The position numbers were made by a program, and so were the translations under genes. The notes below the pieces were generated by a model that saw only the letters and a program-made list of their open reading frames with translations, was not told the origin of the DNA and ran no database searches. Shown piece by piece: positions 5,679 to 47,911 of a stretch of DNA of 64,000 nt. Each line of letters starts with the position of its first letter. Within the stretch, counting starts at the first letter, position 1. The DNA comes from Halomonas sp. H10-9-1 (GTDB taxonomy: Bacteria > Pseudomonadota > Gammaproteobacteria > Pseudomonadales > Halomonadaceae): contig NZ_JAMSHO010000001.1 of the NCBI RefSeq assembly GCF_040147005.1, forward strand, positions 186,001-250,000, read 5' to 3'.

Positions 5679-8384
<2,706 letters not shown>

Positions 8385-9708
8385 CAGCCTGTTGAAATTC
8401 GCCTACGGCCTGTCTGACTTTGCCGTGTAAGGTTTACGATATCGGCTCCAATCTGCCGGGAACCCCGATTTCCATGCGTGGCGCCGATATCACTCAGGAA
8501 TCCTTGTTCACTGTCGCCAAGCTCGATGACTTCGTGCCAGCGACTCACCCCCTGCGCGCCATCCGCAAGCTGGCAGACACCGCTCAGCAGCGGATGAGCG
8601 CCCTGTTTGACACCTTGTATGCCGACACCGGTCGCGCCTCGATCGCCCCCGAGAAGCTGATGCGGGCGCAGTTGCTGCAGTTGTTCTACTCGCTGCGCAG
8701 CGAGCGGATGCTCATGGAGCAACTGGGCTACAACCTGCTGTTCCGCTGGTTCGTCGGCTTGGCCATCGATGATCCGGTGTGGGATCACTCGGTCTTCTCG
8801 AAGAACCGTGACCGTCTCAATGCCCAGGCCGTGGCCACCGAATTTCTGAGCGAGGTGGTGCGCCTGGCAGAGAAGCAGGGGCTGATCTCGGATGAGTACT
8901 TCTCGGTCGACGGCACATTGCTGCAAGCCTGGGCCTCTCAGAAGAGTTTCCGGCCCAAGGACGACTCTCCAGACGATCAAGGCCCCGGACCACGCAATGC
9001 CCCGCCGGACTTCAAGGGGCACAAGCGCAGCAACGACACCCACGCCTCGACCAGCGATCCGGATGCCCGGCTGTACCGAAAGAGCCACAACACCGGCGCG
9101 CAGCTGAGTTACATGGGGCATGTGCTGATGGAACACCGCAGTGGCCTGGTGCGCAGTGCTCATGTGACTCTGGCCGGTGGCCGTGGCGAACGCGAAGCCG
9201 CGCTGGCGATGCTGAGCAAGCTGGGTGGTCGCCGTCGCCGCACCTTGGCTGCGGACAAGGCCTACGACACGGCAGACTTCGTGGCCGCCTGTCGTGCCCT
9301 CGGCGTGACACCGCATGTGGCGCAGAACACCAATGGTCGGCGCAGCGCCATCGATGGCCGTACCACGCGCCACGCCGGCTATGGTCTGAGCCTGAAGATT
9401 CGCGCCTGGATCGAAACCCACTTCGGCTGGCTCAAGGCGGCGGCAGGCCTGCGCCAGGTGAAGCAACGCGGACTTGAGCGTGTCGACGCGCTGTTCCAGC
9501 TGGCCATGGCGGCAAGCAACCTGGTGCGCCTGCCGAAGCTGCTGGCTACAGGCTCAATGGCATGAGCGCGTTGACGGGGAAGGTGCGCCTGGAGCACGCC
9601 AAATCGGGCTATTTCCATCGATTGGCGCCCTAAACGGGAAGTAAACGAGCGCGACCGCTGCTGCCAGAAGCAGTGGACGTAATCATCGCGGCGAATTTCA
9701 ACAGGCTG
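8385..9708 (+). mobile_element. Complete IS5-type insertion sequence with 18-bp perfect inverted repeats
   Basis: A 1324-bp element bounded by perfect 18-bp terminal inverted repeats, CAGCCTGTTGAAATTCGC at 8385-8402 and its complement at 9691-9708. It carries one transposase gene. The four bases outside the left end (CTAG) and right end (TTAA) do not match, so there is no visible target-site duplication. Together with the one-sided truncation of the IS3 remnant, this means that DNA next to the element has been deleted or recombined. Confidence 0.88.
8474..9565 (+). CDS. IS5-type (DUF772/DDE) transposase
   Basis: A transposase of about 363 residues. The N-terminal DUF772 domain begins MRGADITQESLFTVAKLDDFVPATHPL, with the conserved LLQLFYSLRSERMLMEQL block. 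The C-terminal DDE domain has SVDGTLLQAWASQKSF (first Asp), ADKAYDTADFVAACR (second Asp) and an IETHFGWLK-type Glu region. I start at 8474 because this Met begins the conserved family N-terminus; an upstream in-frame start at 8420 would add unconserved residues. All catalytic blocks look intact, so the element may be active. The exact subgroup (IS5 proper versus IS1182-like) is uncertain. Confidence 0.88.
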   Translation: MRGADITQESLFTVAKLDDFVPATHPLRAIRKLADTAQQRMSALFDTLYADTGRASIAPEKLMRAQLLQLFYSLRSERMLMEQLGYNLLFRWFVGLAIDDPVWDHSVFSKNRDRLNAQAVATEFLSEVVRLAEKQGLISDEYFSVDGTLLQAWASQKSFRPKDDSPDDQGPGPRNAPPDFKGHKRSNDTHASTSDPDARLYRKSHNTGAQLSYMGHVLMEHRSGLVRSAHVTLAGGRGEREAALAMLSKLGGRRRRTLAADKAYDTADFVAACRALGVTPHVAQNTNGRRSAIDGRTTRHAGYGLSLKIRAWIETHFGWLKAAAGLRQVKQRGLERVDALFQLAMAASNLVRLPKLLATGSMA

Positions 9709-9842
9709 TTAAGGCCCCTCTTAGCCGATTGCGACATCGGCATGCCAGTGGCGGTACCGGTAGCGCCCCCCGACGTTGTCAGCCTCGGAGGGTGGTGCCA
9801 ACATGCGATCAGCAGGCCGATGAAGAACTCAATGGGTGACCC

Positions 9843-11561
9843 ATGACCGTCCAGACCGTGACCCCCAAGCGCCGCTTTCGCGGCAAGCCCCGAGGCCGTG
9901 AGCTCGACCCCGCCACGCTCGACTCGCTGCGGCGCCTGTTGGGTGACGAGCGCGAGGAACCCGAGCGCCGCCGGCGCGACTTGCTGATCGAGCATCTGCA
10001 TGTCATCCAGGACGCCCGCGGGCACCTTTCGCTGGGCGACCTGCGCGCGCTGGCCGCCTACATGAACCTGCCCATGGCGGCGGTCTACGAGACTGCCACC
10101 TTCTATGCCCACTTCGACGTGGTCCACGACGACCAGGCCCCGCCGCCGGCGATCACCGTGCGCGTCTGCGACTCGCTGTCCTGCCAGTTGGCCGGCGCCG
10201 CCAGCCTCCAGGGCGCCCTCGAGGCCGGCGCCGACCCGTCGCGGGTCCGTGTGCTGCGAGCGCCCTGCATGGGCCGCTGCGACATGGCCCCGGTGGTCGA
10301 GGTGGGCCATCGCCATGTCAGCCGTGCCACCCAGGAGGCGGTGGAGGCGGTGGTGGATACCGGCCACTTCCACCCCGAGGCGATTCTCTGGCAGAAGCTC
10401 GAGGCCTACCGGGAAGCCGGCGGCTATCGCCTGCTGGCCGACTGCCGGGCCGGCAAGGTGAGCGTGGAGCGCCTGATGCAGACCCTGGAGGCCGCCAACC
10501 TGCGCGGCCTGGGCGGCGCCGGCTTCCCGACCTTCAAGAAGTGGGAGGTCGTGCGCGCCGAGGCGGGGCCGCGCTACTGCGCGATCAATGCCGACGAGGG
10601 CGAGCCCGGTACCTTCAAGGACCGCCACTACCTGGAGCGCGAGCCCCATCGCTTCCTGGAGGGCGCCCTGGTCAGCGCCTGGGCCGTGGAGGCCTGCGCG
10701 CTCTATATCTACCTGCGCGACGAGTATCCCGGCCTGCACCGGGTGCTCCACGAGGCGATCGCCGAACTGGAGGCCACCGGCCTGGTCGCGCCGGGCTATA
10801 TCGTGATGCGGCGTGGCGCCGGGGCCTACATCTGTGGCGAGGAGTCGGCGATGATCGAATCGCTGGAGGGCAAGCCGGGCAAGCCCCGCCATCGCCCGCC
10901 CTTCGTTGCCCAGCGCGGGCTCTTCGACCGCCCGACCCTGGTCAACAACGTCGAGACCGTCACCTGGATCTCGACGATCTGGGCCCGTGGCGCGGCCTGG
11001 TTCGCCGACCAGGGGCGTCATGGGCGCAAGGGGCTGCGCAGCTTCTCGGTCTCCGGTCGCGTCAATCGGCCCGGCGTCCACCTGGCCCCGGCGGGCATCA
11101 CCCTGAGCGAGCTGATCGAGGAGTACTGCGGCGGCATGGCCGACGGCCACCGCCTGGCGGCCTACCTGCCCGGCGGCGCCTCCGGCGGTATCCTGCCGGC
11201 CTCCAAGGCGGATATTCCCCTCGACTTCGATACGCTGCAGGCCGAGGGCTGTTTCATCGGCTCGGCGGCCATCATCGTGCTCTCCGACCAGGACGACCTG
11301 CGCGCCGTCGCCACCAACCTGCTGGCCTTCTTCGCCGACGAGTCCTGCGGCCAGTGCACGCCCTGCCGGGTGGGCACCGAGAAGATGCTGACCCTGCTCG
11401 AGGGTGACACCTGGCAGGCCGCAGACCTCGAGCGACTCTCGCGGGTGATGATGGACGCCTCCATCTGCGGCCTCGGCCAGGCCGCACCGAACCCGGTGCT
11501 GGGGCTGCTTCGAGACTTCCGCGACGAGCTCGCCGCACAGAACGTGATCGTGAAAGGGTAG
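9843..11561 (+). CDS. fdsB: NAD-dependent formate dehydrogenase, fused gamma/beta (NuoE-NuoF-like) flavoprotein subunit
   Basis: A 572-residue fusion of the 24-kDa thioredoxin-like [2Fe-2S] subunit (FdsG/NuoE) and the 51-kDa NADH/FMN subunit (FdsB/NuoF). Residues 1-150 carry the four cluster cysteines as Cys109, Cys114, Cys142 and Cys146 (VCDSLSC and APCMGRCD). The flavoprotein half shows GLGGAGFPTFKKWE (NAD/FMN binding), INADEGEPGTFKDR and GAGAYICGEESAMIESLEG, and the [4Fe-4S] motif SCGQCTPCRVG near residue 505. In the cytoplasmic Fds complex it passes formate electrons to NAD+. The 134 bases between the IS5-type element and the ATG hold the promoter region, but I see no clear -35/-10 pair. 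fdsA follows after 11 bases. Its role here is probably oxidation of formate made from methyl groups of betaine and sarcosine. Confidence 0.93.
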   Translation: MTVQTVTPKRRFRGKPRGRELDPATLDSLRRLLGDEREEPERRRRDLLIEHLHVIQDARGHLSLGDLRALAAYMNLPMAAVYETATFYAHFDVVHDDQAPPPAITVRVCDSLSCQLAGAASLQGALEAGADPSRVRVLRAPCMGRCDMAPVVEVGHRHVSRATQEAVEAVVDTGHFHPEAILWQKLEAYREAGGYRLLADCRAGKVSVERLMQTLEAANLRGLGGAGFPTFKKWEVVRAEAGPRYCAINADEGEPGTFKDRHYLEREPHRFLEGALVSAWAVEACALYIYLRDEYPGLHRVLHEAIAELEATGLVAPGYIVMRRGAGAYICGEESAMIESLEGKPGKPRHRPPFVAQRGLFDRPTLVNNVETVTWISTIWARGAAWFADQGRHGRKGLRSFSVSGRVNRPGVHLAPAGITLSELIEEYCGGMADGHRLAAYLPGGASGGILPASKADIPLDFDTLQAEGCFIGSAAIIVLSDQDDLRAVATNLLAFFADESCGQCTPCRVGTEKMLTLLEGDTWQAADLERLSRVMMDASICGLGQAAPNPVLGLLRDFRDELAAQNVIVKG

Positions 11562-11572
11562 GGAGAGACACC

Positions 11573-14452
11573 ATGACGACCCACGCAGGCGTTAACGACG
11601 ACTTTACCCTGACCCTGGATGGCGTGGACGTCAGCGCCCGGCCCGGGGAAACCCTCTGGCAGGTGGCCAAGCGGGCCGGCGAGACCATCCCGCACCTCTG
11701 CTTCAAGGACGCCCCCGGCTACCGGGCCGACGGCAATTGCCGGGCCTGCATGGTGGAGATCGAGGGCGAGCGCACCCTGGCCGCCAGCTGCCTGCGCGAG
11801 GCGCGTCCCGGCATGGTGGTCAAGAGCGCCTCCTCGGAGCGGGCCCGCACCGCCCGGGAGGGCGTGCTGGAGCTGCTGGTCGCCGACCAGCCGGACCGCG
11901 AGGCCGGCCCCGACCGCTCGAGCCACTTCTGGGACATGGCCGAGGCGCTTGCCATCGACGCCGACGCCGTGCGCCAGTGGCTGCCGCGGCGCGCGGAGCG
12001 CGAGGCGCCTACCGTCCATCATGTCCCCGAGCGGGCCGGCTCGCCGGTGCATGATCGCTCCCACTCGGCGATGGCCGTCAACCTCGACGCCTGCATCGAG
12101 TGCAACCTCTGCGTGCGGGCCTGCCGCGAGGTCCAGGTCAACGACGTCATCGGCCTGGCGCACCGTGGGGCGGCGTCGAAGATCGTCTTCGATTTCGACG
12201 ACCCCATGGGCGACAGCACCTGTGTGGCCTGCGGCGAGTGTGTCCAGGCCTGTCCCACCGGGGCACTGATGCCGGCGACCCTGGTTGATGCGCAGGGTCG
12301 CGGCGACTCCGCCGTCGCCGACCGGCAGGTAGACTCCGTCTGCCCCTACTGCGGCGTGGGCTGCCAGCTCACCTATCACGTGAAGGATGACCGCATCCTC
12401 TTCGTCGAGGGCAAGGACGGTCCGGCCAATCAGGGGCGGCTATGCGTCAAGGGGCGCTTCGGGTTCGACTACCCCAACCATGCGGCGCGCCTGACCGTCC
12501 CGTTGATTCGCCGCGAGGGTGTCGCCAAGGGGCTCGACCCGGAATTCGATCCGGCCCAGCCGCTGACCCATTTTCGCGAGGCGAGCTGGGACGAGGCGCT
12601 GGACCTGGCCGCCCAGGGGCTCATCGACCTCAAGGCCGCTCATGGGCCCCAGGCGCTGGCCGGCTTTGGCAGCGCCAAGTGCTCCAATGAGGAGGCCTGG
12701 CTGTTCCAGAAGCTGGTGCGCACCGGCTTCGGCTCCAACAACGTCGACCACTGCACCCGGTTGTGTCACGCCAGCTCGGTGGCGGCGCTGATGGAGTGCA
12801 TCGGCTCCGGCGCCGTGACCGCCTCGTTCATGCAGGCGGCCAACGCCGAGGTGGTGATCCTCACCGGCTGCAACCCGGCGGTGAACCATCCGGTGGCGGC
12901 GACCTTCTTCAAGCAGGCCGCCAAGCGCGGTACCAAGTTCCTGATTCTCGACCCGCGTGGCCAGGCGCTGGATGCCTATGCGCATCTCAGTGTGCGCTTC
13001 ACGCCGGGGGCTGACGTCTCGCTGTTCAACGCGTTGCTCAACGTCATCATCAGTGAGGGCCTCTACGACGAGGCTTATATCGCCGAGCATACCGAAGGCT
13101 TCGCGGCGCTCAAGGCGCACGTCGCCGGGATGACCCCGGAGGCGATGGCCCCGGCCTGCGGCGTTGAGCCGGCCACCATCCGCGAGGTGGCCCGCCTCTA
13201 TGCCACTGCCGAGCGGGCGATGATCTTCTGGGGCATGGGGATCTCCCAGCACACCCATGGCACCGACAACGCTCGCTGTCTGATCTCGCTGGCGCTGGCC
13301 TGTGGCCACACCGGCCGCCCCGGTACCGGCCTGCATCCGCTGCGCGGCCAGAACAACGTACAGGGCGCCTCCGACGCCGGCCTGATCCCCATGGTGCTGC
13401 CGGACTACCAGCCGGTGGGCGATAGCCAGCTGCGTGCCGCTTTCGAGGAGTTGTGGAACACGCCGCTCGACGACCAGCCGGGCCTGACCGTGGTGGAAAT
13501 CGTGCACGCCATCCACGATGGCATCATCCGCGGCATGTATATCCAGGGCGAGAATCCGGCGATGTCCGACCCCGACCTGGAGCATGCCCGGGCGGCCCTG
13601 GGCAAGCTCGAGCACCTGGTGGTGCAGGACCTCTTCGTCACCGAGACGGCGCAGTTCGCCGACGTCATACTGCCGGCTTCCGCCTGGTCGGAGAAGGAGG
13701 GTAGCGTCACCAATACCAACCGCCAGGTGCAGCTGGGCCGCCAGGCCGTACCGCTGCCGGGCCAGGCCCGGCCCGACTGGTGGATCATCCAGGAGATCGC
13801 CCGGCGCTTCGGCCTGGCCTGGGACTATGGCCATCCCCGGGAGGTGTTCGCCGAGATGGCCCGCGGCATGCCCTCGCTCGATCACATCACCTGGGAGCGT
13901 CTCGAGCACGAACACTCGGTGACCTACCCTTGCCCATCGGACGACGCCCCGGGGGCGGACATCGTATTCAGCGAGTCCTTCCCCACCGCCAGCGGCCGGG
14001 CAACGTTCTCACCGACCCTGCCGCTACCGCCGGACGAGCCGGTCGACGCGGAGTATCCCACCGTGTTGACTACCGGTCGCCAGCTCGAGCACTGGCACAC
14101 CGGCTCCATGACCCGCCGCACCCGCGTGCTCGACGCTCTCGAGCCGGGCGCGGTGGCGAGCCTCGCCCCCTCGGAGCTGCGTCGGCTGGGCGTGGCCCCT
14201 GGTGATCCAATCACCATCACCACGCGGCGCGGCAGCATCACCCTGGCGGCACGCGTCGACCCGGCGATGCAGGAAGGCATGGTCTTCGTGCCCTTCTGCT
14301 ATGCCGAAGCGGCCGCCAATGTACTGACCAACCCGGCGCTGGACCCCTTCGGCAAGATCCCCGAGTTCAAGTATGCGGCGGCCCGGCTGTCACGAGCGGA
14401 GCCTGTCGACTCATCAGCGGCCGTCGATGGCGCTGAATCAGAGGGAGGGTAG
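11573..14452 (+). CDS. fdsA: NAD-dependent formate dehydrogenase, molybdenum catalytic alpha subunit
   Basis: A 959-residue catalytic subunit oxidising formate to CO2 at a bis-molybdopterin guanine dinucleotide centre. The N-terminal ferredoxin-like domain has the [2Fe-2S] ligands (HLCFKDAPGYRADGNCRACMVE). Next come two [4Fe-4S] motifs, CIECNLCVRACREVQ and CVACGECVQACPTGA. The CPYCGVGCQLTYH cluster then opens the molybdopterin oxidoreductase domain at about residue 260. The Mo ligand is Cys, in DHCTRLCHASSV near residue 400; it is not selenocysteine. Molybdopterin-binding blocks such as ILTGCNPAVNHPVAATF and GQNNVQGASDAGL are intact. The C-terminal molydopterin dinucleotide-binding domain ends near residue 930. 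GAGAG lies upstream of the ATG. The gene order B-A-D lacks the FdhD-like fdsC that many fds operons carry, so the sulfurtransferase must be encoded elsewhere. Confidence 0.95.
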   Translation: MTTHAGVNDDFTLTLDGVDVSARPGETLWQVAKRAGETIPHLCFKDAPGYRADGNCRACMVEIEGERTLAASCLREARPGMVVKSASSERARTAREGVLELLVADQPDREAGPDRSSHFWDMAEALAIDADAVRQWLPRRAEREAPTVHHVPERAGSPVHDRSHSAMAVNLDACIECNLCVRACREVQVNDVIGLAHRGAASKIVFDFDDPMGDSTCVACGECVQACPTGALMPATLVDAQGRGDSAVADRQVDSVCPYCGVGCQLTYHVKDDRILFVEGKDGPANQGRLCVKGRFGFDYPNHAARLTVPLIRREGVAKGLDPEFDPAQPLTHFREASWDEALDLAAQGLIDLKAAHGPQALAGFGSAKCSNEEAWLFQKLVRTGFGSNNVDHCTRLCHASSVAALMECIGSGAVTASFMQAANAEVVILTGCNPAVNHPVAATFFKQAAKRGTKFLILDPRGQALDAYAHLSVRFTPGADVSLFNALLNVIISEGLYDEAYIAEHTEGFAALKAHVAGMTPEAMAPACGVEPATIREVARLYATAERAMIFWGMGISQHTHGTDNARCLISLALACGHTGRPGTGLHPLRGQNNVQGASDAGLIPMVLPDYQPVGDSQLRAAFEELWNTPLDDQPGLTVVEIVHAIHDGIIRGMYIQGENPAMSDPDLEHARAALGKLEHLVVQDLFVTETAQFADVILPASAWSEKEGSVTNTNRQVQLGRQAVPLPGQARPDWWIIQEIARRFGLAWDYGHPREVFAEMARGMPSLDHITWERLEHEHSVTYPCPSDDAPGADIVFSESFPTASGRATFSPTLPLPPDEPVDAEYPTVLTTGRQLEHWHTGSMTRRTRVLDALEPGAVASLAPSELRRLGVAPGDPITITTRRGSITLAARVDPAMQEGMVFVPFCYAEAAANVLTNPALDPFGKIPEFKYAAARLSRAEPVDSSAAVDGAESEGG

Positions 14453-14456
14453 AAAG

Positions 14457-14717
14457 ATGATGATTGCGGATCTATTTGATAGTGAAGACTTCCGTCAGCG
14501 GCTGGTGGCGCTGGGAGTACGGATTCCTGACAACGCCTGTCCCGAGACCTGCGCGCGCATGGCGCGGCTGATGCACGAGCAGGTCGGCGTCGAGGGGCTG
14601 GCGGCGCTGGTGGCCGAGCTCGAAGGCCGGCGCGAGGTGATGCTGCCTTCCGTGCGCAACGCCCTGGAGCAGTTCCTTTGCCCCGTGGTCGATACCGGTG
14701 GCAGCGGGCGTCAGTGA
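14457..14717 (+). CDS. fdsD: Formate dehydrogenase delta subunit
   Basis: An 86-residue FdsD-family protein, the small delta subunit or assembly factor of the NAD-dependent formate dehydrogenase. The region IPDNACPETCARMARLMHEQVGVEGLAALVAELE is typical of the family's helical core. The start at 14457 follows GAGGGAGGG and lies 4 bases after the fdsA stop; an upstream in-frame ATG at 14373 lies inside fdsA and is ignored. It ends the operon, with a strong hairpin 24 bases downstream. Confidence 0.88.
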   Translation: MMIADLFDSEDFRQRLVALGVRIPDNACPETCARMARLMHEQVGVEGLAALVAELEGRREVMLPSVRNALEQFLCPVVDTGGSGRQ

Positions 14718-14772: not shown

Positions 14773-16059
14773 TCAGCCCTGCACCATCTGCAACGGCGGG
14801 GCGTTCTCCTTGAGGTTCTCCTGCAGCCGCTCGCTGTACCAGTCGATGAAGTCGATCACGCCGAACTCATAGGTCCCGGAGTAGGGGCCGGGCTCATAGG
14901 CTTTGGAGTTGATGCCGCGCTGGTTCTCCTCGGCGAGACGGCGATCCTGGTTATTGGTGGCATCCCACACCTTGCGCATCTGCTCGGGGTCGTAGTCCAC
15001 GCCCTCCACGGCGTCCTTGTGCACCAGCCATTTGGTGGTGACCACGCTCTGCTGCGGGCCGAGCGGCATGACGCGAAACACCACGGCATGATCGCCCATG
15101 AAGTGGTTCCACGAGTTAGGCAGGTGCAGGATGCGTAGCGACCCCATGTCGGGACTCTCGAGACGCCCCATCAGCTTCTGGCAGGCGGCCTTGCCGTCTA
15201 GTGTCATGGACACGGTACCCTCACGCAGCGGGGTCCGCGTCAGACGATTCTGCTTGCCGAAGCGCTTGAGCTGCCAGGGCACCCGCTGGACCTCCCAATC
15301 GGCCTGCTTGTTGGCGACGAGGGCCTTGTAAGCCGGTGTGGCGCGCGGATCGTCGGTATCGTCGAACTCCTGCAGAGCGTTGAGCAACTCCGGGTGGGCG
15401 CCGTTGCAGTGGTAGCACTCGCGGTTGTTCTCGATGACCAGCTTCCAGTTGGCCTGCTCGACGATGGAGGACTCCACGGCCACCTTGACGTTGGCCATGT
15501 CGTAGGGCTCCAGGTAGTGCTCCAGGGTGGCCAGGAAGTCATCGATGGCAGGGGGAGCATCGGAGAGGCTGATGAAGATATAGCCGCCGGCGCTCTTCAC
15601 CTGGATCGGCTTAAGGCCGTAGGCGGCGAGGTCGAAGTTCTCGCCCATGTCGCTGCCGGCAAACAGCAGACGGCCGTCGAGCTCATAGGTCCACTGATGG
15701 TAGGGGCAGACCAGCTTGGCGACCTTGCCCTTCTCGTGCAGGCACAGCCGTGAGCCGCGGTGGCGGCACACGTTATGGAAGCCGTGCACGGCGCCGTCGT
15801 TGCCGCGCACCAGGATCACCGGGTTGTCGCCCACGTCCAGGGTCATGTAGTTGCCCTTGGCGGGGATCTCGCAGGTCATGCCGGCGAACAGCCACTCCTT
15901 CTCGAAGATCTCCTGCATGTCCACTGCGAAGACCCGGGCGTCGTTGTAGAACGGCTGTGGCAGCGAGAAGTTGGGCCGTCGCTGGCGCAAGCTCTCGGCC
16001 ACTTCGTGGCGCGCGGCGGCCAGTGGGTCGTCATGTGGAGCAGGGCAGAAGTTGGTCAT
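14773..16059 (-). CDS. gbcA: Glycine betaine monooxygenase, Rieske oxygenase subunit
   Basis: A 428-residue ring-hydroxylating-type Rieske oxygenase closely resembling the family of GbcA/BmoA, which oxidatively demethylates glycine betaine to dimethylglycine and formaldehyde. The Rieske cluster ligands are Cys98-x-His100 and Cys118-x2-His121 (VCRHRGSRLCL and LVCPYHQW). The mononuclear iron site is visible as NNRECYHCNGAHPE (His217 and His222). The C-terminal half holds the catalytic domain, ending in VIDFIDWYSERLQENL. The gene appears intact and ends against the hairpin at 14742-14767. It is divergent from gbcB but separated from it by an IS3 element. Because its reductase gbcB is interrupted by IS21, GbcA can only work if another reductase supplies electrons. 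Confidence 0.92.
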   Translation of the reverse strand: MTNFCPAPHDDPLAAARHEVAESLRQRRPNFSLPQPFYNDARVFAVDMQEIFEKEWLFAGMTCEIPAKGNYMTLDVGDNPVILVRGNDGAVHGFHNVCRHRGSRLCLHEKGKVAKLVCPYHQWTYELDGRLLFAGSDMGENFDLAAYGLKPIQVKSAGGYIFISLSDAPPAIDDFLATLEHYLEPYDMANVKVAVESSIVEQANWKLVIENNRECYHCNGAHPELLNALQEFDDTDDPRATPAYKALVANKQADWEVQRVPWQLKRFGKQNRLTRTPLREGTVSMTLDGKAACQKLMGRLESPDMGSLRILHLPNSWNHFMGDHAVVFRVMPLGPQQSVVTTKWLVHKDAVEGVDYDPEQMRKVWDATNNQDRRLAEENQRGINSKAYEPGPYSGTYEFGVIDFIDWYSERLQENLKENAPPLQMVQG

Positions 16060-16324
16060 GTCGGGGGTTCCTTATTGTTGGGTCGGTATGGTGCCGGCGG
16101 GAGCCAGACTATGGACGCATGCGGAGTGTGCGCCAGGCCGAATGGATGTCCATACCTGCGAGCGACACGCAATGGTGCCAATACGACGCCGCCGGAGAAG
16201 GGGATACAGGCCCTTGGCTCCAATGGATATCCTGATGTCGCAGATAGAACAGTCGGGCCTGCGGAAGAAGACGCAGAATGCCCATAGGCGGCGCTGGTAG
16301 CGATCGCCGACGCGCTATCTATAG
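16060..16324. promoter_or_regulatory. gbcA upstream region, ending at the IS3 boundary
   Basis: This 265-base stretch upstream of gbcA holds no credible gene and should contain the gbcA promoter and its GbdR-type operator. I could not assign a site by eye. It is cut on its right by the IS3 element at 16325, which separates it from the gbcB start. Confidence 0.45.
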
Positions 16325-16386
16325 TGGACCCTGAAAACAAGACACTGGTTTAAGATATGCCGAGGCCGATTTCGAAGGGACCAGAG

Positions 16387-16683
16387 ATGTCGAAGCAGAA
16401 ACGTAACACCCACTCGCCGGAGCTGAAGGCCAAGGTCGCCTTGGAGGCGGTCCGTGGCTTGAAGACGGCCAACGAAATCGCGCAGGAATTCGGGGTCCAC
16501 CCTGTCCAGGTCGGCCAGTGGAAGAAGGCGCTGCTGGCTGACTCGGCCACCTTGTTCGACAAGAAGCGGGGTCCCAAGCCCAAGCCTGAATATCAGACCG
16601 ACGAGAAGCTCTACGGGGAGATCGGCCGCCTGAAGATGGAGCTCGACTGGCTGAAAAAAAAGTCCGGGATCAACCTGCCATGA
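16387..16683 (+). CDS. IS3-family transposase OrfA
   Basis: A 98-residue DNA-binding protein with a helix-turn-helix (SPELKAKVALEAVRGLKTAN, EIAQEFGVHPVQVGQWKK) and a C-terminal leucine-zipper-like helix (YGEIGRLKMELDWLKKK). The A8 run at 16654-16661 inside the LKKK codons is the expected slippage site for making the OrfAB fusion transposase. The start at 16387 gives the usual MSKQKRNTHSPELKAKVALE beginning; an upstream in-frame start at 16357 is less likely. Confidence 0.88.
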   Translation: MSKQKRNTHSPELKAKVALEAVRGLKTANEIAQEFGVHPVQVGQWKKALLADSATLFDKKRGPKPKPEYQTDEKLYGEIGRLKMELDWLKKKSGINLP

Positions 16684-17618
16684 TCCGCCGCAGCTGGATC
16701 GATGCGACCGACCAGGTGCCCCTGGCTCGACAGTGCGCGTTGGCAGACGTCGCCAGATCAACGGTTTATGCTCAGCGACAGCCGAAGGTGCCAGCGGATC
16801 TGAATATCGAGCTATGCCACGCGCTCGATGAGATCTACACGCGCTGGCCGTTCTATGGCAGCCGTCGGATGGTGGTGGAGCTGGGGCGGCGTGGCTTTCG
16901 GGTCAACCGCAAGCGTGTTCAGCGTCTAATGCGCCACATGGGGCTGGCAGGCATGGCGCCAGGCCCTATGACCAGCCAATCGCACCCAGACCACAAGGTC
17001 TATCCGTACCTGCTACGCGGCGTATCGGTCACACGCCCGAATCAGGTGTGGAGCACCGATGTCACATACATTCGGCTGGCACATGGCTTCGTGTATCTGG
17101 TGGCGATCATCGACTGGTACAGCCGCAAGGTGTTGAGCTGGCGGCTGAGCAATACCATGGACGCCGGCTTCTGCGTCGATGCTCTGGAAAGCGCTCTGCG
17201 GCTGCATGGCGCGCCGGAGATCTTCAACAGCGACCAGGGCTCTCAATTCACGAGCCAGGCCTTCACGGGAGTGCTCAAGGACGCGGGCGTCACCATCAGC
17301 ATGGACGGCCGTGGCCGGGCGTTCGACAACATCTTCGTCGAGCGGCTATGGCGGACGGTCAAGTATGAAGACGTGTACCTGAAGGGCTATGCGAGCCTCG
17401 GCGAGCTGACCCTCGGTCTATCCGACTACTTCGCGTTCTACAACGTCCAGCGCCCTCACCAGTCGCTGGAGAACCAGACCCCGGACGACGTTTATCAGTC
17501 GGGCCTCGGGGGCGGCGCTTCCATTCCTGACCACTTCGGTCGTCAGAAGGATGCCGCACAGAACCAAAACACAGGGCAGCGCTGTGCAGCTGCAACCATG
17601 GCTGAGACGATAACTTAA
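16680..17618 (+). CDS. IS3-family transposase OrfB (integrase core)
   Basis: A 312-residue transposase. An N-terminal HTH_21-like region (ELCHALDEIYTRWPFYGSRR, VNRKRVQRLMRHMGLAG) is followed by the rve DDE core: WSTDVTYIRLAHGFVYLVAIIDW (Asp), IFNSDQGSQFTS (Asp) and FDNIFVERLWRTVKYEDVY (Glu). All catalytic residues are present. Its ATG overlaps the orfA stop. Normally the active enzyme is the frameshifted OrfAB product. Confidence 0.9.
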   Translation: MIRRSWIDATDQVPLARQCALADVARSTVYAQRQPKVPADLNIELCHALDEIYTRWPFYGSRRMVVELGRRGFRVNRKRVQRLMRHMGLAGMAPGPMTSQSHPDHKVYPYLLRGVSVTRPNQVWSTDVTYIRLAHGFVYLVAIIDWYSRKVLSWRLSNTMDAGFCVDALESALRLHGAPEIFNSDQGSQFTSQAFTGVLKDAGVTISMDGRGRAFDNIFVERLWRTVKYEDVYLKGYASLGELTLGLSDYFAFYNVQRPHQSLENQTPDDVYQSGLGGGASIPDHFGRQKDAAQNQNTGQRCAAATMAETIT

Positions 17619-17690
17619 ACCCGTTCGTTTTCTGTCTTGACGATGGGGTCCACTTTAATCAGCCTTGCTCAACCCCCTGGCGAGACGACG

Positions 17691-18586
17691 ATGACAATGA
17701 ACTTCCTCAATCCGGTGACGACCCAGACCTGGACCAACGGCCGCCATCTGGTGCGCTGCGTCAAGGTGATTCAGGAGACCTGGGATGTGTGTACCTTCTG
17801 TTTCATGGCCGAACAGCCGGTGCTCTTCTTCTTCAAGCCGGGACAGTTCGTGACTCTGGAGCTGGAGATAGACGGTGAGCCGATCATGCGCTCCTACACG
17901 ATCTCGAGCTCCCCTTCGGTGCCCTACAGCTTCTCGATCACTGTCAAGCGGGTGCCGGGCGGCAAGGTATCCAACTGGCTACACGACAACCTTTCCGTCG
18001 GTGACGAACTGGCGGTGCATGGCCCGGTGGGTAACTTCAACTCGATCGACTACCCGGCCGATAAAGTGCTGTTCCTTTCCGGGGGCGTGGGTATCACGCC
18101 GCTGATGTCGATGACTCGCTGGTTCTTCGACACCAATGCCAACGTCGACGTCGAGTTTATCCACAGTGCGCGCGCTCCCCGCGATGTCATCTACCATCGT
18201 GAGCTGGTGCACATGTTCTGCCGGATTCCCGAGTTCAAGCTGCATATCGTCTGCGAGAAGAAGGACGATGTGGGTGAGGCCTGGGCCGGCTATCGCGGGT
18301 ATCTGACCCAGCCGATGCTGGAGCTCATGGCCCCTGACTTCCTCGAGCGCGAGATCTTCTGCTGCGGCCCCACGCCCTACATGAACGCGGTCAAGCGCAT
18401 CCTGCGTGATAACGGCTTCGACATGAACCACTACCACGAGGAGTCTTTCGGCGCCACGCCGCTGGATGTGCGCGAGGAAGTGCTGGAGCTGGTCGAGCAA
18501 GCCGAGGCAGAAGCCGAGGAGCTCGACTATGCCGATATGCTCAGCGTCGAGTTCGCCAGTTCGGGCAAGAGCGTGCGTATCCAGCC
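17691..18586 (+). pseudogene. gbcB: Glycine betaine monooxygenase reductase GbcB, 5' part (interrupted by IS21)
   Basis: This is the first 299 codons of GbcB, the NADH-dependent flavin/[2Fe-2S] reductase that feeds GbcA. The FAD-binding domain shows RSYTISSSP near residue 75; the NAD domain shows FLSGGVGITPLMSM and IFCCGPTPYM. At base 18586 the frame runs into an IS21 end and stops after 19 foreign codons. If the IS21 and one copy of the 5-bp duplication are removed, this part joins base 20828 in frame to give a 368-residue protein. The start is taken at 17691; a second ATG follows at 17697. The IS3 element ends only 38 bases upstream, so the native promoter has also been displaced. Confidence 0.92.
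18582..18586. repeat. Left copy of IS21 target-site duplication (CAGCC)
   Basis: CAGCC directly precedes the IS21 left end, and an identical CAGCC lies at 20823-20827 directly after the right end. This marks a simple transposition into gbcB without loss of gene sequence. Confidence 0.9.
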
Positions 18587-18665
18587 TGTCAGGCGACACG
18601 TAAAACTGACCCCCAGGCGACACGGAAAATTGACCCCTCCGTGAGCTCATCAGGAGGGTCCGCCC

Positions 18666-19973
18666 ATGAAGAAATCCGGATATAACGTTCCCCACACTCA
18701 GGTACGAGGGGAACCGATGCAGAGCCCAGAGGATGTCGCCGCCATGCTGCGCCTGAAGGCCTGTGGCTGGGGCACCAAGCGCATCGCCGACGAGCTCGGC
18801 ATCAGCAGGAACACCGTCAAACGCTACCTGCGCCAGGGCGGCTGGGCACCCTACGCGAGCCCGCAGCGCAGCAAGTCGCTGGAAGGGCTGGAGGAATGGC
18901 TGAAGGCGCGCTTCCTGCAGCATGCCGGCAACGCCGCCGTGGTCCTGCAGGACCTGCAGCTAGAGCACGGCATCACGGTCAGCCTGCGCACGGTGGAACG
19001 CGCCTGCGCGCCGTTCCGCCAGGCACTGGCCGCCGAAGCCAAGGCCACGGTGAGGTTCGAGACGCCGCCCGGGAAGCAGCTGCAGATCGACTTTGGCAGC
19101 CGCCACATCACCATCAATGGGGAGTCGGTCAAGGTCTTCCTGTTTGTCGCCACCCTGGGCTACTCCCGCCGCCTCTACGTCCGTGCCTTCCGGCACGAGC
19201 GGCAGTCGGCGTGGTTCGCCGGCCTGGAGGGCGCCTTCCGCCACTTTGGCGGGGTGCCAGAGCAGGTGCTGCTGGATAACGCCCGGGCGCTGGTCGACCA
19301 CCACAACGCGGCGACCCGCGAGGTCGTGTTCAACGAGCGGCTGGCAGCCTTTGCCCGTTACTGGGGGTTCCGGCCGGTGGCCTGTGCGCCGTACCGCGCC
19401 CGTACCAAGGGCAAGGACGAGCGAGGCGTTGGCTACGTGAAGCGTAATGCTATCGCCGGCCGGACCTTCGCCGCCTGGGCGGCGATGGAGACCCACCTGA
19501 GCTGGTGGATGCGCGAGATCGCCGACCAGCGGGTCCACGGCACCACCGGAGAGCTGCCGGCGGTGCGCTTCATCGCCGAACAGGCCAGCCTGCAGCCGCT
19601 CAAAGACAGGGCGCCCTTCGAGCAGGCCCGTGAACTGAGCCGCCGGGTACAGCGCGACGCCACCGTGGAGGTCGACACCAACCGCTACAGCGTGCCCTGG
19701 CGCCTGATCGGCGAACCCGTTCAGGTCAGCGTGACCGACGGCGAACTGCGGGTACATCACGCTGGCCGCGAGGTAGCCCGCCACCCGGAGCTGGGCGGGC
19801 GCCGCCAGGTGCGCTGCCTGTCGGAGCACCTGCAAGGCATCGTCGGCTACCGATCACCCAAGGCGGACACCGAGGAGGTCGTGGCGCCCAGCGAGATCGT
19901 GGCCACCTTGCCGCCGGCTGCGCTGCAGCGCGACCTGACCGAGTACGAAGCCGTGGTGGGAGGTGGCTGGTGA
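18666..19973 (+). CDS. istA: IS21-family transposase IstA
   Basis: A 435-residue IstA. An N-terminal HTH (MLRLKACGWGTKRIADELGI, SRNTVKRYLRQGGW) is followed by the rve DDE domain with QLQIDFGSRH (Asp), VPEQVLLDNARALV (Asp) and TKGKDERGVGYVKRN (Glu), and a Mu-type C-terminal domain with VDTNRYSVPWRLIGEPVQV. The start MKKSGYNVPHTQV follows a GGAGGG site. Its TGA overlaps the istB start. Confidence 0.93.
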   Translation: MKKSGYNVPHTQVRGEPMQSPEDVAAMLRLKACGWGTKRIADELGISRNTVKRYLRQGGWAPYASPQRSKSLEGLEEWLKARFLQHAGNAAVVLQDLQLEHGITVSLRTVERACAPFRQALAAEAKATVRFETPPGKQLQIDFGSRHITINGESVKVFLFVATLGYSRRLYVRAFRHERQSAWFAGLEGAFRHFGGVPEQVLLDNARALVDHHNAATREVVFNERLAAFARYWGFRPVACAPYRARTKGKDERGVGYVKRNAIAGRTFAAWAAMETHLSWWMREIADQRVHGTTGELPAVRFIAEQASLQPLKDRAPFEQARELSRRVQRDATVEVDTNRYSVPWRLIGEPVQVSVTDGELRVHHAGREVARHPELGGRRQVRCLSEHLQGIVGYRSPKADTEEVVAPSEIVATLPPAALQRDLTEYEAVVGGGW

Positions 19974-20770
19974 TGACGACGCCGGAGACTGAGCGCCTGG
20001 ACGCCATGCTGACGCGTCTCAAGCTGACCGCCATCCGCGAGCGGCTCGACACGCTGCTCGACGAAGCCGCACGCCGGGAACTGACCCTGCGCGAGACGCT
20101 GGCCTACCTGTGCGAGCAGGAGGTGGCCCACAAGGAGCAGCGGCGCATCCAGATGGGGCTGAGCATCGCCCGCTTCCCGTTCCTGCGCACTCTGGAAGGG
20201 TTCGATTTCAGCGCTCAGCCTGCCGTCGATCCCGGTCAGATCCGTGAGCTGGCCTGCGGACGCTGGATCGCCAACGGCGACGCCCTGCTGCTGCTCGGCC
20301 CGCCGGGCGTGGGCAAGAGCCACCTCGCCGTGGCACTGGGCCGGGAAGCGGTCAAGGCCGGCTACTCGGTGCTGTTCACCACCGCCACGGCACTGATCAC
20401 CCAACTGGTCCAGGCCTATGCCAATGGCGCCCTGGAGGAGCGGCTGAGGCACTTCGCCAAGCCCAAGCTATTGATCATCGACGAGCTGGGCTACCTGCCG
20501 CTGGAACCCGGGGCGGCCAACCTGTTCTTCCAGTTGGTCACCCGGCGCTATGAACGCGGCAGTCTGCTGGTCACCAGCAACCGGGCGGTCAGCGAGTGGG
20601 GTGAGGTGTTCGGTGACGCCGTGGTCGCCACAGCGATCCTCGACCGGCTGCTTCATCACAGTCACGTCATCACCATCCGCGGTGACAGTTACCGACTGCG
20701 CGCCAAGCGCAAGGCCGGGCTGATCAAGCCCGATTCCATCCACCATGACGAGCAGGTCGTCAGAGGGTAA
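19970..20770 (+). CDS. istB: IS21-family helper ATPase IstB
   Basis: A 265-266 residue IstB/DnaC-like AAA+ ATPase. Walker A is LLGPPGVGKSHLAVALG near residue 103, Walker B is LLIIDELGYLPLE near residue 164, and the sensor block LVTSNRAVSEWGEVFGD is present. Translation may begin at the GTG at 19970 or, more likely, at the ATG at 19973 overlapping the istA stop. It loads IstA onto target DNA and grants target immunity in this family. Confidence 0.93.
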   Translation: MMTTPETERLDAMLTRLKLTAIRERLDTLLDEAARRELTLRETLAYLCEQEVAHKEQRRIQMGLSIARFPFLRTLEGFDFSAQPAVDPGQIRELACGRWIANGDALLLLGPPGVGKSHLAVALGREAVKAGYSVLFTTATALITQLVQAYANGALEERLRHFAKPKLLIIDELGYLPLEPGAANLFFQLVTRRYERGSLLVTSNRAVSEWGEVFGDAVVATAILDRLLHHSHVITIRGDSYRLRAKRKAGLIKPDSIHHDEQVVRG

Positions 20771-20822
20771 GGGGGTCAGATTTCACTGTCGCCAGGGGGT
20801 CACTTTCTGATGTCGCTTGACA

Positions 20823-20827
20823 CAGCC
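20823..20827. repeat. Right copy of IS21 target-site duplication (CAGCC)
   Basis: This matches the copy at 18582-18586. Removing the element and one copy restores the codons Arg-Ile-Gln-Pro-Gly-Glu-Thr across the junction. Confidence 0.9.
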
Positions 20828-21038
20828 GGGCGAGACGGTGCATGCCGCGGCGGCCAAGCTGGGGCTCCACATTCCCAAGGCGTGCGGTATGGGTATCTGC
20901 GGCACGTGCCGGGTTGGGCTCAAGTCGGGCGAAGTGGACATGGACCACAATGGCGGCATTACAGAGGAGGATCTTGCCGACGGCTATATCCTGTCTTGCT
21001 GTAGCAAGCCATTGGGCGATGTCGTGGTGGAGTACTGA
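20828..21038 (+). pseudogene. gbcB: Glycine betaine monooxygenase reductase GbcB, 3' part
   Basis: This is the last 69 codons of gbcB, encoding the C-terminal plant-type ferredoxin domain. The cluster ligands are seen in KACGMGICGTCRVGLKSG and in the late Cys of ILSCCSKPLGD. It is in frame with the 5' part once the IS21 is removed. On its own it lacks the FAD and NAD domains, and any product would be a free ferredoxin-like stub without its N-terminal strand. The gene body shows no further damage, so the interruption is recent and could revert by precise excision. Confidence 0.92.
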
Positions 21039-22838: not shown

Positions 22839-24047
22839 ATGCAACTGCCGTCACTTATCGAGATTCCCAACGGCGAGAAAGTGGTACCGACGTTCTCCGA
22901 TAACGAGATGAAGGGGCGCCTCGCTCGCCTGCGCGACTACATGGCGAAGAACGAGGTCGACGCTGTTGTGTTGACCTCCTATCACAACATCAACTACTTC
23001 AGTGACTTCGTCTACTGCAAGTTCGGCCGCGACTACGGCCTGGTGGTGACCCAGGACAGCTTCACCACCGTGACCGCCAACATCGACGGCGGTCAGCCTT
23101 ATCGCCGCAATCGTCTGGGCGACAACATCGTCTACACCGACTGGCAGAAGGACAACTTCTTCAAGGCCGTCAAGCAGCTCTGCGAAGGCAAGCGTCGCGT
23201 TGGCGTCGAGTACGACCACATGACGCTGCAGAACAAGCAGAAGCTCCTCGATGCGCTGGGTGATGTCGAGCTGGTCGACGCCGGCGTGCCCACCATGCAG
23301 ATGCGCATGGTCAAGTCCGACGAGGAGATCGCGCTGATTCGCCAGGGCGCTCGCATCGCCGACGTGGGCGGCGTTGCCGTGCGGGATGCCATCTACGCCG
23401 GCGTGCCGGAGTACGAGGTGTCGCTGGCCGGTCAGGCCGCCATGGTGCGCGAGATCGCCAAGACCTACCCCAACAGCGAGCTGATGGATACCTGGGTGTG
23501 GTTCCAGTCCGGTATCAACACCGACGGTGCCCACAACCCGGTGACCAGCCGCCGCGTGCAGCCCGGCGATATCCTCAGCCTGAACACCTTCCCGATGATC
23601 TCCGGCTACTACACCGCCCTGGAGCGCACCATGTTCCTCGGCCATGCCTCCGACGAGCACCTGCGTCTGTGGGAGGTGAACTGCGAGGTGCACCGCCGCG
23701 GTCAGGAGCTGATCAAGCCCGGCGTGCGTTGCTGTGACATCGCCCATGAGCTCAACGAGATCTTCGCCAAGCACGACCTGCTCAAGTACCGCACCTTCGG
23801 TTACGGCCACTCCTTCGGCACCCTGAGCCACTACTACGGCCGCGAGGCGGGCCTGGAGCTGCGTGAGGACATCGAGACAGTGATCGAGCCCAACATGGTG
23901 GTCTCCATGGAGCCGATGATCACCGTGCCGGAGGGCCTGCCGGGTGCCGGTGGCTACCGCGAGCACGATATCCTGGTGGTCAACGAGCATGGAGCCGACA
24001 ATATCACCGGTTTCCCGTATGGCCCGGAGCACAATATCATCAAGTAA
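22839..24047 (+). CDS. Creatinase (creatine amidinohydrolase)
   Basis: A 402-residue M24-fold enzyme hydrolysing creatine to sarcosine and urea. It is the length of the Pseudomonas creatinase and very similar along its whole length. Characteristic blocks are TSYHNINYFSDFVYCKFGR, NIDGGQPYRRN, ELMDTWVWFQSGINTDGAHN, FGYGHSFGTLSHYYGRE (catalytic His) and VSMEPMITVPEGLPGAGGYREHD. Like other creatinases, it lacks the metal-ligand set of methionine aminopeptidases. The ATG follows GAGAGGAGATAACAAC. With creatininase next door and sarcosine oxidase 10 kb downstream it forms a creatinine to glycine route. Confidence 0.95.
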   Translation: MQLPSLIEIPNGEKVVPTFSDNEMKGRLARLRDYMAKNEVDAVVLTSYHNINYFSDFVYCKFGRDYGLVVTQDSFTTVTANIDGGQPYRRNRLGDNIVYTDWQKDNFFKAVKQLCEGKRRVGVEYDHMTLQNKQKLLDALGDVELVDAGVPTMQMRMVKSDEEIALIRQGARIADVGGVAVRDAIYAGVPEYEVSLAGQAAMVREIAKTYPNSELMDTWVWFQSGINTDGAHNPVTSRRVQPGDILSLNTFPMISGYYTALERTMFLGHASDEHLRLWEVNCEVHRRGQELIKPGVRCCDIAHELNEIFAKHDLLKYRTFGYGHSFGTLSHYYGREAGLELREDIETVIEPNMVVSMEPMITVPEGLPGAGGYREHDILVVNEHGADNITGFPYGPEHNIIK

Positions 24048-24112: not shown

Positions 24113-24871
24113 ATGAGCAGTGTCAAGATAGAGAACCTTGACTGGGTAACCTACAAGTCGCTGACGGAAAGTGGTCAGTGCAGAATCATCCTCCCGGTGG
24201 GGGCCATCGAGCAGCATGGGCCTCATATGTCGCTTAATCCCGATGTGCTGATTCCCAGCCATATTGGCGAGAAGGTGGCGGAAAGAAGCAAAAATATGCT
24301 GGTAGCGCCCGCCATCAGCTATGGATATAAGTCACAGGTAAAATCCGGGGGAGGCAACTTCTTTCCCGGCACAACCTGCGTGTCGGGCGCCTCGCTTGAG
24401 AACTATGTATTCGATGTGTTGCAGGCCTATGTCAACCATGGCAATCGCGAATTCATCCTGATCAATGGCCACTTCGAGAACTCCATGCACCTCTGTGAGG
24501 CCGCCGACAGGCTGGTCAACAAGTGCAAGGGCGAAGGCATTTCGATCAAGATCTATCTGCTCTCCTACTGGGACTTCATCAGCGAGGAGACCATCGAGAA
24601 GGTGTTCCCCGACGGCTTCACAGGCTGGGCCGTTGAGCATGGCGGTGTGCTGGAGACGTCGATCATGCTCAAGCTTCACCCTGAGCTCGTCGACATGTCG
24701 AAGGCTGTCGACGTGGAGCCGGCTACCTTCCCTCCCTACGATGTCTTTCCCCCCGACCCTTCCTGGGTAGCACCGTCCGGGACCCTGTCTTCTCCGCTCA
24801 ATTCGACACCGGAGAAGGGAGAAATGATCCTCGAGGAGTGTATATCGGGAATCGTGTCGCACTTGAACTGA
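24113..24871 (+). CDS. Creatininase (creatinine amidohydrolase)
   Basis: A 252-residue member of the creatininase family, which opens the creatinine ring to creatine using two metal ions. The N-terminal metal site is seen as LPVGAIEQHGPHMSLNPDVLIP (Glu, His and Asp ligands). Other blocks are SGGGNFFPGTTCVSGASL, LINGHFENSMHLCEAADR and SYWDFISEE, then WAVEHGGVLETSIMLKLHPELV (Glu ligand region) and FPPYDVFPPDPSW. This fits true creatininases better than the mycofactocin or FAPy-deformylase branches. G+C is lower than in sox genes. GGGGAGAAATGAG precedes the ATG. Confidence 0.9.
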   Translation: MSSVKIENLDWVTYKSLTESGQCRIILPVGAIEQHGPHMSLNPDVLIPSHIGEKVAERSKNMLVAPAISYGYKSQVKSGGGNFFPGTTCVSGASLENYVFDVLQAYVNHGNREFILINGHFENSMHLCEAADRLVNKCKGEGISIKIYLLSYWDFISEETIEKVFPDGFTGWAVEHGGVLETSIMLKLHPELVDMSKAVDVEPATFPPYDVFPPDPSWVAPSGTLSSPLNSTPEKGEMILEECISGIVSHLN

Positions 24872-24954: not shown

Positions 24955-26643
24955 ATGTCAGATAAAGAACCGGTCACGGTCCCACGGTTCACGGGACGAG
25001 ACCTCCCCCCCTTCGGGCGACTGGTCATCCAGTTTGCCCCGCCCATCGCCATCATTGCCCTGATCGTGATGGTGCTTCGCAATCCCGATGGCGTCGCCTC
25101 GGTCATCTTCGACCTGAGGACCTACGTCACGGGTGGTTTCACCTGGCTGTTCATCCTCTACTCACTGTTCGCCGTAGCGGTCTGCGGCTGGCTGGCGTTC
25201 AGCAAGGTGGGAAGCCGCGTCCGTCTGGGGGGGCCCAAGGCGAAGCCCGAATACAGCAACTTCGCCTGGTACTCGATGCTCTTCGCCTGTGGCCAGGGCA
25301 TCGGCCTGATCTTCTGGTCGGTGGCCGAGCCGATCATGCTGCGTGACGAGAGCCCGGTCTTCCAGGCGATGGAAGGCAACGTGGCCGGCGGTGGCATCGT
25401 CTGGGCCTATTTCCACTGGGGCTTTACCGCCTGGGCCATGTACTGCGTCGTCGCGGTGTGTCTCGCCTACTCCCACCACAACCTGGGCAAGACCCTGACC
25501 TTCCGCGAGGCGACGGTGGACCTGCTGCCGCGCTGGGCGCGTGGTGGTGCCGGCGTGGTGGTGGAACTACTGGCGATCATGGCCACCATCCTGGGGCTCT
25601 CCACCTCCTTCGCCTTTGCCGCCATGCAGTTCACCGCGGGTCTCACCTCATTCACCGGCGTGACCTCTGGGCCGACCATCTGGCTGTTCGTCATCGTGGG
25701 CCTGGGTACCGCCGCGGCGATCTCGGCGTTCTTCGGCATCAGCAAGGGGATGCGCCTGATCAGCGAGACGAACTCCATCCTCAGCGTCGTGCTGGTGGTG
25801 GCCGCCTTCATCTTCGGCCCGACGCTGTTTATCATCTCCAACGTCACCCAGACCTTCGGCTCCTACTTCGCCAACTTCGTGCCCATGAGCTTCTGGACCG
25901 ATGCGCCGAGCACGGCAGAGCCGCTGACCTCCTGGCAGCAGAGCTGGAACGGCTGGTGGACGGTGTTCATCTGGTGCTGGGTGATCGCCTTCTCGCCCTT
26001 CGTGGCCGGCTTTATCGCCCGCATCTCCCGAGGACGCACGCTGCGTGAATTCGTCATCGGCGTCACCGTGATCCCTTCCCTGATCGTCATGCTGTGGATC
26101 GGCGTTCTCGGCTCCGCGGCCATCTACTACGACGACAAGAGCGGGCGGGGCATCACCGATGCGGTGAATGCGGATGTCGCCAGCGGTCTCTTCGCGATGC
26201 TGGAATCCATCCCGGTGGTGGGCAGCCTGCTGCTGGTGGTGGCGACGGTGCTGGTGGCGACCTACTACGTGACATCCCTGGATGCCGGCACCTACGCCCT
26301 GGCGGACTTCGTTTCCGCACCGAAGCGTGCAGGCGCCTGGTTCCGCGTGGTCCTGGTGCTCAGCATCGGCGCGGTGGCGACGGTACTGCTCACCCTGGGG
26401 GGCAGCGGGGTGGTCGATACGGTTCAGACCGGAACCATCATCGGCGCCTTCCCCTTCTCCATCGTGATTATCCTGATGATCGTGAACACCATACGTCGCC
26501 TGCGCAGTCGCGACAGGGCGACCAGGGAGCTGGAGATGGTGGTCAACGACCCCGACCCCAATGTGGAACTCAAGGTCAGCGAGGAGGGGGATGTCCGAAC
26601 GGTATCCGCCGGCAAAATGAAACCTGGGGCGTCGAGATCCTGA
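24955..26643 (+). CDS. BCCT-family betaine/carnitine/choline-type transporter
   Basis: A 562-residue transporter with twelve predicted membrane helices. The BCCT signature is present: SKVGSRVRLGGPKAKPEYSN, GIGLIFWSVAEPIMLRD, AYFHWGFTAWAMYCVV, NSILSVVLVV and the cytoplasmic-side motif FVAGFIARISRGRTLREFVIG. BCCT carriers import quaternary-ammonium or related zwitterions driven by Na+ or H+. The position directly after creatinase and creatininase suggests creatine, creatinine or betaine as substrate; this is inference. The C-terminal tail is short and acidic/basic without a long osmosensor helix, so it is more likely a nutrient importer than a stress-activated BetP. Confidence 0.92.
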   Translation: MSDKEPVTVPRFTGRDLPPFGRLVIQFAPPIAIIALIVMVLRNPDGVASVIFDLRTYVTGGFTWLFILYSLFAVAVCGWLAFSKVGSRVRLGGPKAKPEYSNFAWYSMLFACGQGIGLIFWSVAEPIMLRDESPVFQAMEGNVAGGGIVWAYFHWGFTAWAMYCVVAVCLAYSHHNLGKTLTFREATVDLLPRWARGGAGVVVELLAIMATILGLSTSFAFAAMQFTAGLTSFTGVTSGPTIWLFVIVGLGTAAAISAFFGISKGMRLISETNSILSVVLVVAAFIFGPTLFIISNVTQTFGSYFANFVPMSFWTDAPSTAEPLTSWQQSWNGWWTVFIWCWVIAFSPFVAGFIARISRGRTLREFVIGVTVIPSLIVMLWIGVLGSAAIYYDDKSGRGITDAVNADVASGLFAMLESIPVVGSLLLVVATVLVATYYVTSLDAGTYALADFVSAPKRAGAWFRVVLVLSIGAVATVLLTLGGSGVVDTVQTGTIIGAFPFSIVIILMIVNTIRRLRSRDRATRELEMVVNDPDPNVELKVSEEGDVRTVSAGKMKPGASRS

Positions 26644-33992: not shown

Positions 33993-34005
33993 ACCCGTAA
34001 AGGAT

Positions 34006-34026
34006 CGGCCCCGCTCGGCGGGGCCG
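34006..34026 (+). terminator. Hairpin between glyA and soxB
   Basis: CGGCCCCGC-TCG-GCGGGGCCG, a perfect 9-bp stem in the 50-base gap, followed by the soxB ribosome site (GAGGAGGAAG). No T-run, so it more likely protects mRNA or attenuates than terminates fully. Confidence 0.5.
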
Positions 34027-34042
34027 GCCGAGGAGGAAGAAC

Positions 34043-35293: not shown

Positions 35294-35305
35294 GGAGATA
35301 ACAAC

Positions 35306-47898: not shown

Positions 47899-47911
47899 GG
47901 AGCGTTAACAA

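Follow-up and report, generated by a model that had tools for sequence, protein, structure and literature searches.

Glycine betaine is degraded aerobically through the products of gbcA, gbcB, dgcAB, soxBDAG, glyA and sda. In excerpts of a study of Vibrio natriegens (PMC12093977), deletion of gbcA abolished growth on betaine, deletion of dgcA abolished growth on both betaine and dimethylglycine, and DgcB was described as carrying DUF3483 (PF11982). Here, a stretch of 64,000 nucleotides from Halomonas sp. H10-9-1 (contig NZ_JAMSHO010000001.1, positions 186,001 to 250,000), referred to as the window, was analyzed. In this window gbcB, which encodes the glycine betaine monooxygenase reductase, is split by an insertion sequence (IS) of the IS21 family. 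The analysis makes it likely that gbcB became a pseudogene recently and that mobile elements are dismantling the betaine locus in which it lies.

IS elements within and upstream of gbcB

First, the limits of the IS21-family element were determined. It is 2236 bp long and occupies positions 18587 to 20822 of the window on the plus strand, with the left end TGTCAGGCGACA and the right end TGTCGCTTGACA. Four further full-length copies in the genome (97.8, 96.1, 96.0, and 93.2% identity to the copy in gbcB) aligned from end to end and had identical termini, so the boundaries of the element are firm. Partial copies were also found, one of which is split into a part of 378 bp with 100% identity and a part of 1865 bp with 97%. 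The copy in gbcB is flanked by the target site duplication CAGCC (18582–18586 and 20823–20827); 6-bp duplications were recognized by eye at two of the other full-length copies (L002 and L003), and none at the other two. The element encodes a DDE transposase, IstA (18666–19973, plus strand; NF033546, 270 bits, cut-off 160), and the helper ATPase IstB (19970–20770, plus strand; NF038214, 290 bits, cut-off 200), which together with the defined ends and the CAGCC duplication place it in the IS21 family. A second IS21-type pair lies at 46420–49542 of the window (istB at 46420–47253 and a piece of istA at 48718–49542), and was not among the DNA matches of the element in gbcB.

The 5' piece of gbcB (17691–18586, plus strand) encodes residues 1–298 and two bases of codon 299. 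It contains the FAD and NAD domains (Pfam FAD_binding_6 and NAD_binding_1), and by itself exceeded the NCBIfam equivalog cut-off for GbcB (NF058606, 550 bits, cut-off 500). As read from the ATG at 17691, the 298 GbcB residues are followed by 19 extra codons and a stop codon ending at 18644; the open-reading-frame list starts this frame at an upstream TTG. The 3' piece (20828–21038, plus strand) encodes most of the [2Fe-2S] domain. It matched positions 15–76 of the 77 positions of the Fer2 model, so this domain is interrupted near its start, and the FAD, NAD, and [2Fe-2S] domains do not lie in a single chain. The original prediction, made from the sequence of the window, had claimed that the ends of the element are flanked by CAGCC and that removal of the element with one CAGCC copy restores a gbcB gene of 368 codons. 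The flanking repeats proved exact to the base, and the joined pieces (17691–18586 and 20828–21038) gave an uninterrupted frame of 1107 nt, or 368 codons and a stop codon, in which there was no second disabling change. A mosaic breakpoint at the insertion was also considered. In a comparison by windows with 45 listed rows, in which some genomes appear twice, the N-terminal piece resembled the relatives more closely than the 3' piece did in 40, and this was taken as no clear breakpoint. No literature linking gbcB, glycine betaine, and insertion sequences was found.

An IS3-family element of 1338 bp (16320–17657, plus strand; NF033516) lies in the intergenic region between gbcA and gbcB, 33 bp from the gbcB ATG and 260 bp from the gbcA start codon. 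It is flanked by the target site duplication ATC (16317–16319 and 17658–17660). The second transposase frame scored 283 bits against the NF033516 cut-off of 160, and the first frame scored 38 bits, below the cut-off. The genome has five copies of this element, all identical, and a 98-bp fragment as a sixth match; the other four copies are at contig 1 positions 878251, 1116153, 2387711, and 3231884. Matching 3-bp flanks were seen at all five (AGG, CTG, GTA, GGT, and ATC). Five identical copies, each with its own duplication, indicate that the element multiplied here in a recent burst. The IS21 copy in gbcB, in contrast, has no full-length identical twin among the resident copies. Alignment of the gbcA-gbcB intergenic region with that of 12 relatives placed most of the conserved columns, among which we infer GbdR sites, on the gbcA side of the IS3 element, so gbcB is detached from its likely regulatory region. 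The single insertion that had been proposed as the block is thus accompanied by another in the gbcB leader. A laboratory event had also been suggested. For the IS21 element this is weakly disfavored, since its best full-length match is 97.8%, although the 378-bp part of the split copy matches it exactly; for the IS3 element, with its five identical copies, it could still hold.

The dimethylglycine step and the electron supply of GbcA

The oxygenase gene gbcA (14773–16059, minus strand), divergently oriented to gbcB, is full length as had been predicted (NF058607, 843 bits, cut-off 670). The genes leading from sarcosine to pyruvate, glyA, soxB, soxA, soxG, purU, and sdaA (32691–42278, plus strand), have open frames and exceeded their family cut-offs, and soxD is assumed to lie between soxB and soxA. 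They are preceded by a gene for a GbdR-like AraC regulator (31350–32405, plus strand), which has an HTH_18 domain and scored 193 bits with NF052371, below the cut-off of 480. The claim that the rest of the pathway is intact therefore stood for soxB, soxA, soxG, glyA, and sdaA, but it did not stand for the demethylation of dimethylglycine. The DgcB marker PF11982 had no match in this genome, while the same search was positive in 72 of the 90 genomes of a genus panel. No dgcA orthologue was found in this genome with the DgcA of genome G052 as the query. One of its two matches, C1:597211, showed 35% identity along most of the length. It was rejected as DgcA, its best family being mycofactocin FadH/OYE, below the cut-off of that family; the other, a short match of 40 residues, was disregarded. 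The dimethylglycine dehydrogenase (DMGDH) domain PF16350 was not found in this genome either, in a search whose control was positive in 1 of 14 genomes. Thus neither dgcAB nor DMGDH was found to complete the aerobic pathway.

The panel showed how unusual this combination is. At a threshold of E ≤ 1e-60, gbcB was matched in 71 of the 90 genomes, including this one. The open frame was at least 374 codons long and without stops in the other 70, and 341 codons long in this genome. The dgcB gene was present in 70 of the 71 gbcB-matching genomes, and this genome was the only one without it; dgcB without a gbcB match occurred in two further genomes, which are 72 and 85% complete. The original prediction had proposed that growth on betaine be contrasted with growth on dimethylglycine. 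Because the searches for dgcA, dgcB, and a domain of the DMGDH type found none of them, this contrast should fail: judged from the gene content, the strain is predicted to grow on neither compound and to grow on sarcosine and, provided that they enter the cell, on creatine and creatinine, which is the main correction to that test.

The region next to gbcA was examined for the former place of dgcAB. The adjoining genes (9843–14717, plus strand), which we take to encode formate dehydrogenase (fdh), have the same neighbors in several relatives. An IS5-family element (8382–9711, plus strand; NF033581) with 22-bp inverted repeats (8382–8403 and 9690–9711) ends 3 bp before position 9715, at which the block conserved with L034 and L038 begins, and it borders the side on which some relatives have etf-dgcB-dgcA. 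The order is dgcA-dgcB-etf-fdh-gbcA/gbcB-glyA-sox in genomes G027, where gbdR follows gbcB, and G053, dgc-etf-fdh-gbcA/gbcB in G017, and dgcB-etf-fdh-gbcA/gbcB in Halomonas denitrificans (L034). In all four, dgcB and etf lie beyond the fdh genes, as does dgcA where the stretch reaches that far. An IS-associated deletion at the IS5 edge appears likely. Among 80 named gbcA loci, for some of which the retrieved flank was short, dgcA or dgcB was within the flank in 30 and creatinase in none. The fdhB protein (9843–11561) shared 97% identity with its H. denitrificans counterpart, whereas the GbcA encoded alongside shared 79%, which indicates a mosaic locus. An apparent transposase remnant on the minus strand (7764–8381), presumably of IS3/IS481 type, is interrupted by the IS5 element at 8382.

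A replacement for GbcB was sought in the whole genome (3.79 Mb in two contigs, estimated to be 99.99% complete). No second GbcB was found, in agreement with the original prediction, which would have fallen with an intact second copy: the N-terminal piece matched itself and seven other proteins, all at no more than 33% identity. PaaE (430 bits, cut-off 421), BenC (573 bits, cut-off 430), and NqrF (713 bits, cut-off 295) each belong to their own family. An Fpr-like protein scored 153 bits with the Fpr family, below the cut-off of 390, L015 and L016 had no family match, and the seventh is presumably an Hmp-like flavohaemoprotein. The small contig was matched by three Halomonas plasmids over at most 18% of its length, at 83–85% identity.

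Creatine genes and the history of the locus

Between gbcB and gbdR the window contains genes for creatinase (creatine amidinohydrolase; 22839–24047, plus strand; PDB 1chm, E 4e-189), creatininase (24113–24871, plus strand; TIGR04448, 306 bits, cut-off 235), and a BCCT-family transporter (24955–26643, plus strand; 386 bits against the betaine BCCT cut-off of 650). A LysR-type regulator and an SSS symporter, both below cut-off, and NhaC, over cut-off, are also encoded there. Both enzymes of the creatinine route are thus present, and they could supply sarcosine without betaine. Because the creatine genes can make sarcosine, the presence of intact sox/glyA/sdaA genes does not have to reflect past growth on betaine. 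Searches for literature on creatininase with creatinase, or on creatinine with sarcosine oxidase, in Halomonas found none.

Creatinase was matched in 35 of the 90 genomes of the panel, and its setting varied. In G027 the creatine block is missing, and 59 bp separate the aligned end of gbcB from that of gbdR. In G039, which has no gbcB match, the block abuts gbdR-glyA-sox, with 93–94% nucleotide identity to the window and no NhaC between. Creatinase is distant from gbcB in G079 and G035, the order in G079 being gbcB, NhaC, and then gbdR-glyA. G053 has two loci, one for betaine and one for creatine, each with glyA and soxA. The creatinase protein is 100% identical (rounded) in this genome and in G080, G039, and G069 (L186, L187, and L188); G080 and G039 are without gbcB, and the gbcB of G069 is 85% identical to that of this genome. 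Among the genomes sharing this creatinase, the DNA identity of the creatine block was 94–95%, in comparison with 89–91% for spoT, which suggests that the block may have been exchanged within the clade.

The lineage was investigated with a spoT tree of 40 of the 90 genomes, chosen to cover those at least 90% complete without gbcB and the close gbcB matches. This genome paired with G003 (support 95/81) and then with G078 (99/98), and neither of these nearest relatives had a gbcB or dgcB match. The selective loss in this strain that had been put forward is therefore not needed. In the surrounding clade of 14 (support 95/98), nine genomes have neither gene, four have both, and this genome has the broken gbcB only. 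G028 and Halomonas sp. LBP4 have identical gbcB genes, and their gbcA genes are at zero branch length from each other, so the genus of the panel is Halomonas or one separated from it. Pairwise ratios of nonsynonymous to synonymous substitution (dN/dS) had medians of 0.18 for this gbcA and 0.09 for this gbcB, and of 0.17 and 0.10 among 30 relatives. Ordered by median, this gbcA was 13th among 31; its comparisons with G083 and with G074 both gave 0.22, above its own median of 0.18. Relaxed selection was thus not seen in either gene. The ordinary purifying selection on both indicates that gbcB was damaged recently in relation to the divergence of species.

Proposed explanation and comparison with known systems

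The IS21 element cuts the Fer2 domain of GbcB, and the IS3 element separates gbcB from most of the conserved intergenic sequence. We propose that, without electrons from GbcB, GbcA would not demethylate betaine, and that any dimethylglycine formed could not be used further. The retained sox, glyA, and sdaA genes would act on sarcosine from creatine and creatinine, and residual GbcA/GbcB activity would consume an osmolyte and release formaldehyde. The IS21 insertion probably removed a last, already useless activity and did not cause the loss, because much of the clade is without betaine breakdown. Several points weigh against this explanation. The order of events is undated. That dgcAB once adjoined this gbcAB is deduced from relatives, two of which (G083 and G052) have dgc near gbcA with no fdh between, and an IS5 edge alone is no proof of a deletion. 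Another reductase could pass electrons to GbcA. In addition, gbcB and gbcA did not group with the clade members G035, G079, and G069 in the approximately unbiased (AU) test (P = 0.0021 and P = 4.5e-6, respectively). The three members of this group had been chosen with the identity tables already known, although before the gbcB tree was seen, and the gbcA test followed the gbcB tree; G053, the fourth relative in the clade that has gbcB, was included in the trees and lay outside the tested group. The placement of the two genes was otherwise weakly supported. The failure to group with the clade means that gbcAB may have come late, without dgcAB.

An explanation built on such a late arrival, in which gbcA-gbcB, with or without the fdh genes, was gained horizontally by a lineage lacking dgcAB, brought little benefit, and was inactivated, so that the pathway was never complete here, falls somewhat short of an even chance in our judgment. 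The AU results agree with it, as do the difference between fdhB and gbcA in identity to H. denitrificans and the lack of gbcB matches in G003, G078, G058, G039, and G080. However, the position of the locus between fdh and gbdR-glyA-sox is the same as in G027, which favors an old resident, and recombination could instead have exchanged gbcA and gbcB in situ. The view that a single IS21 insertion by itself deprived a functional betaine degrader of this ability, whether selected for the value of the osmolyte or fixed in culture, fits the broken gbcB, the open gbcA and lower pathway, and the lack of a second gbcB. We consider it improbable, since dgcAB was not found, the IS3 element lies in the gbcB leader, the nearest relatives are without gbcB and dgcB matches, and the IS21 copy matches no other copy in the genome identically over its length. 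It is similarly hard to credit that GbcA is still active through PaaE, BenC, or another reductase and that betaine is still converted to dimethylglycine. Both reductases are encoded in the genome and gbcA is under purifying selection, but the product would be a dead end without dgcAB, and the measured selection averages over a time that mostly preceded the insertion.

With gbcB taken as a recent pseudogene in a locus under dismantling, a wider and more doubtful idea can be offered tentatively. The feeder of the sarcosine pathway may have switched from betaine (gbcAB and dgcAB) to creatine and creatinine, with the creatine module placed in the betaine locus beside the same GbdR-like regulator and with mobile elements removing the old feeder; this genome would then be midway, and its sisters would have finished. 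Such a switch might exemplify a catabolic hub that takes on a different feeder pathway. A gene broken by an IS element is ordinary in itself. The value of this case is that it is the single exception with gbcB but without dgcB, against 70 other genomes in the panel of 90, which gives a clear and testable growth prediction, and it cautions that the metabolism of a strain should not be read from one insertion.

In comparison with known systems, the IS21-family element has istA and istB, ends of the TGT...ACA type, and a short target duplication, and the IS3-family element has two transposase frames, the first a weak match, and a 3-bp target duplication; nothing about either is unusual. The locus resembles the aerobic glycine betaine pathway of Pseudomonas, Chromohalobacter, and V. 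natriegens in having gbcA, gbcB, soxB, soxA, soxG, glyA, purU, sdaA, and a GbdR-like regulator in one neighborhood. However, it differs in that gbcB is split, dgcAB was not found, and the creatine genes stand between gbcB and gbdR. These genes correspond to the route from creatinine through creatine to sarcosine, with creatininase and creatinase adjacent and upstream of a sarcosine oxidase operon, but here that route is located within a betaine locus.

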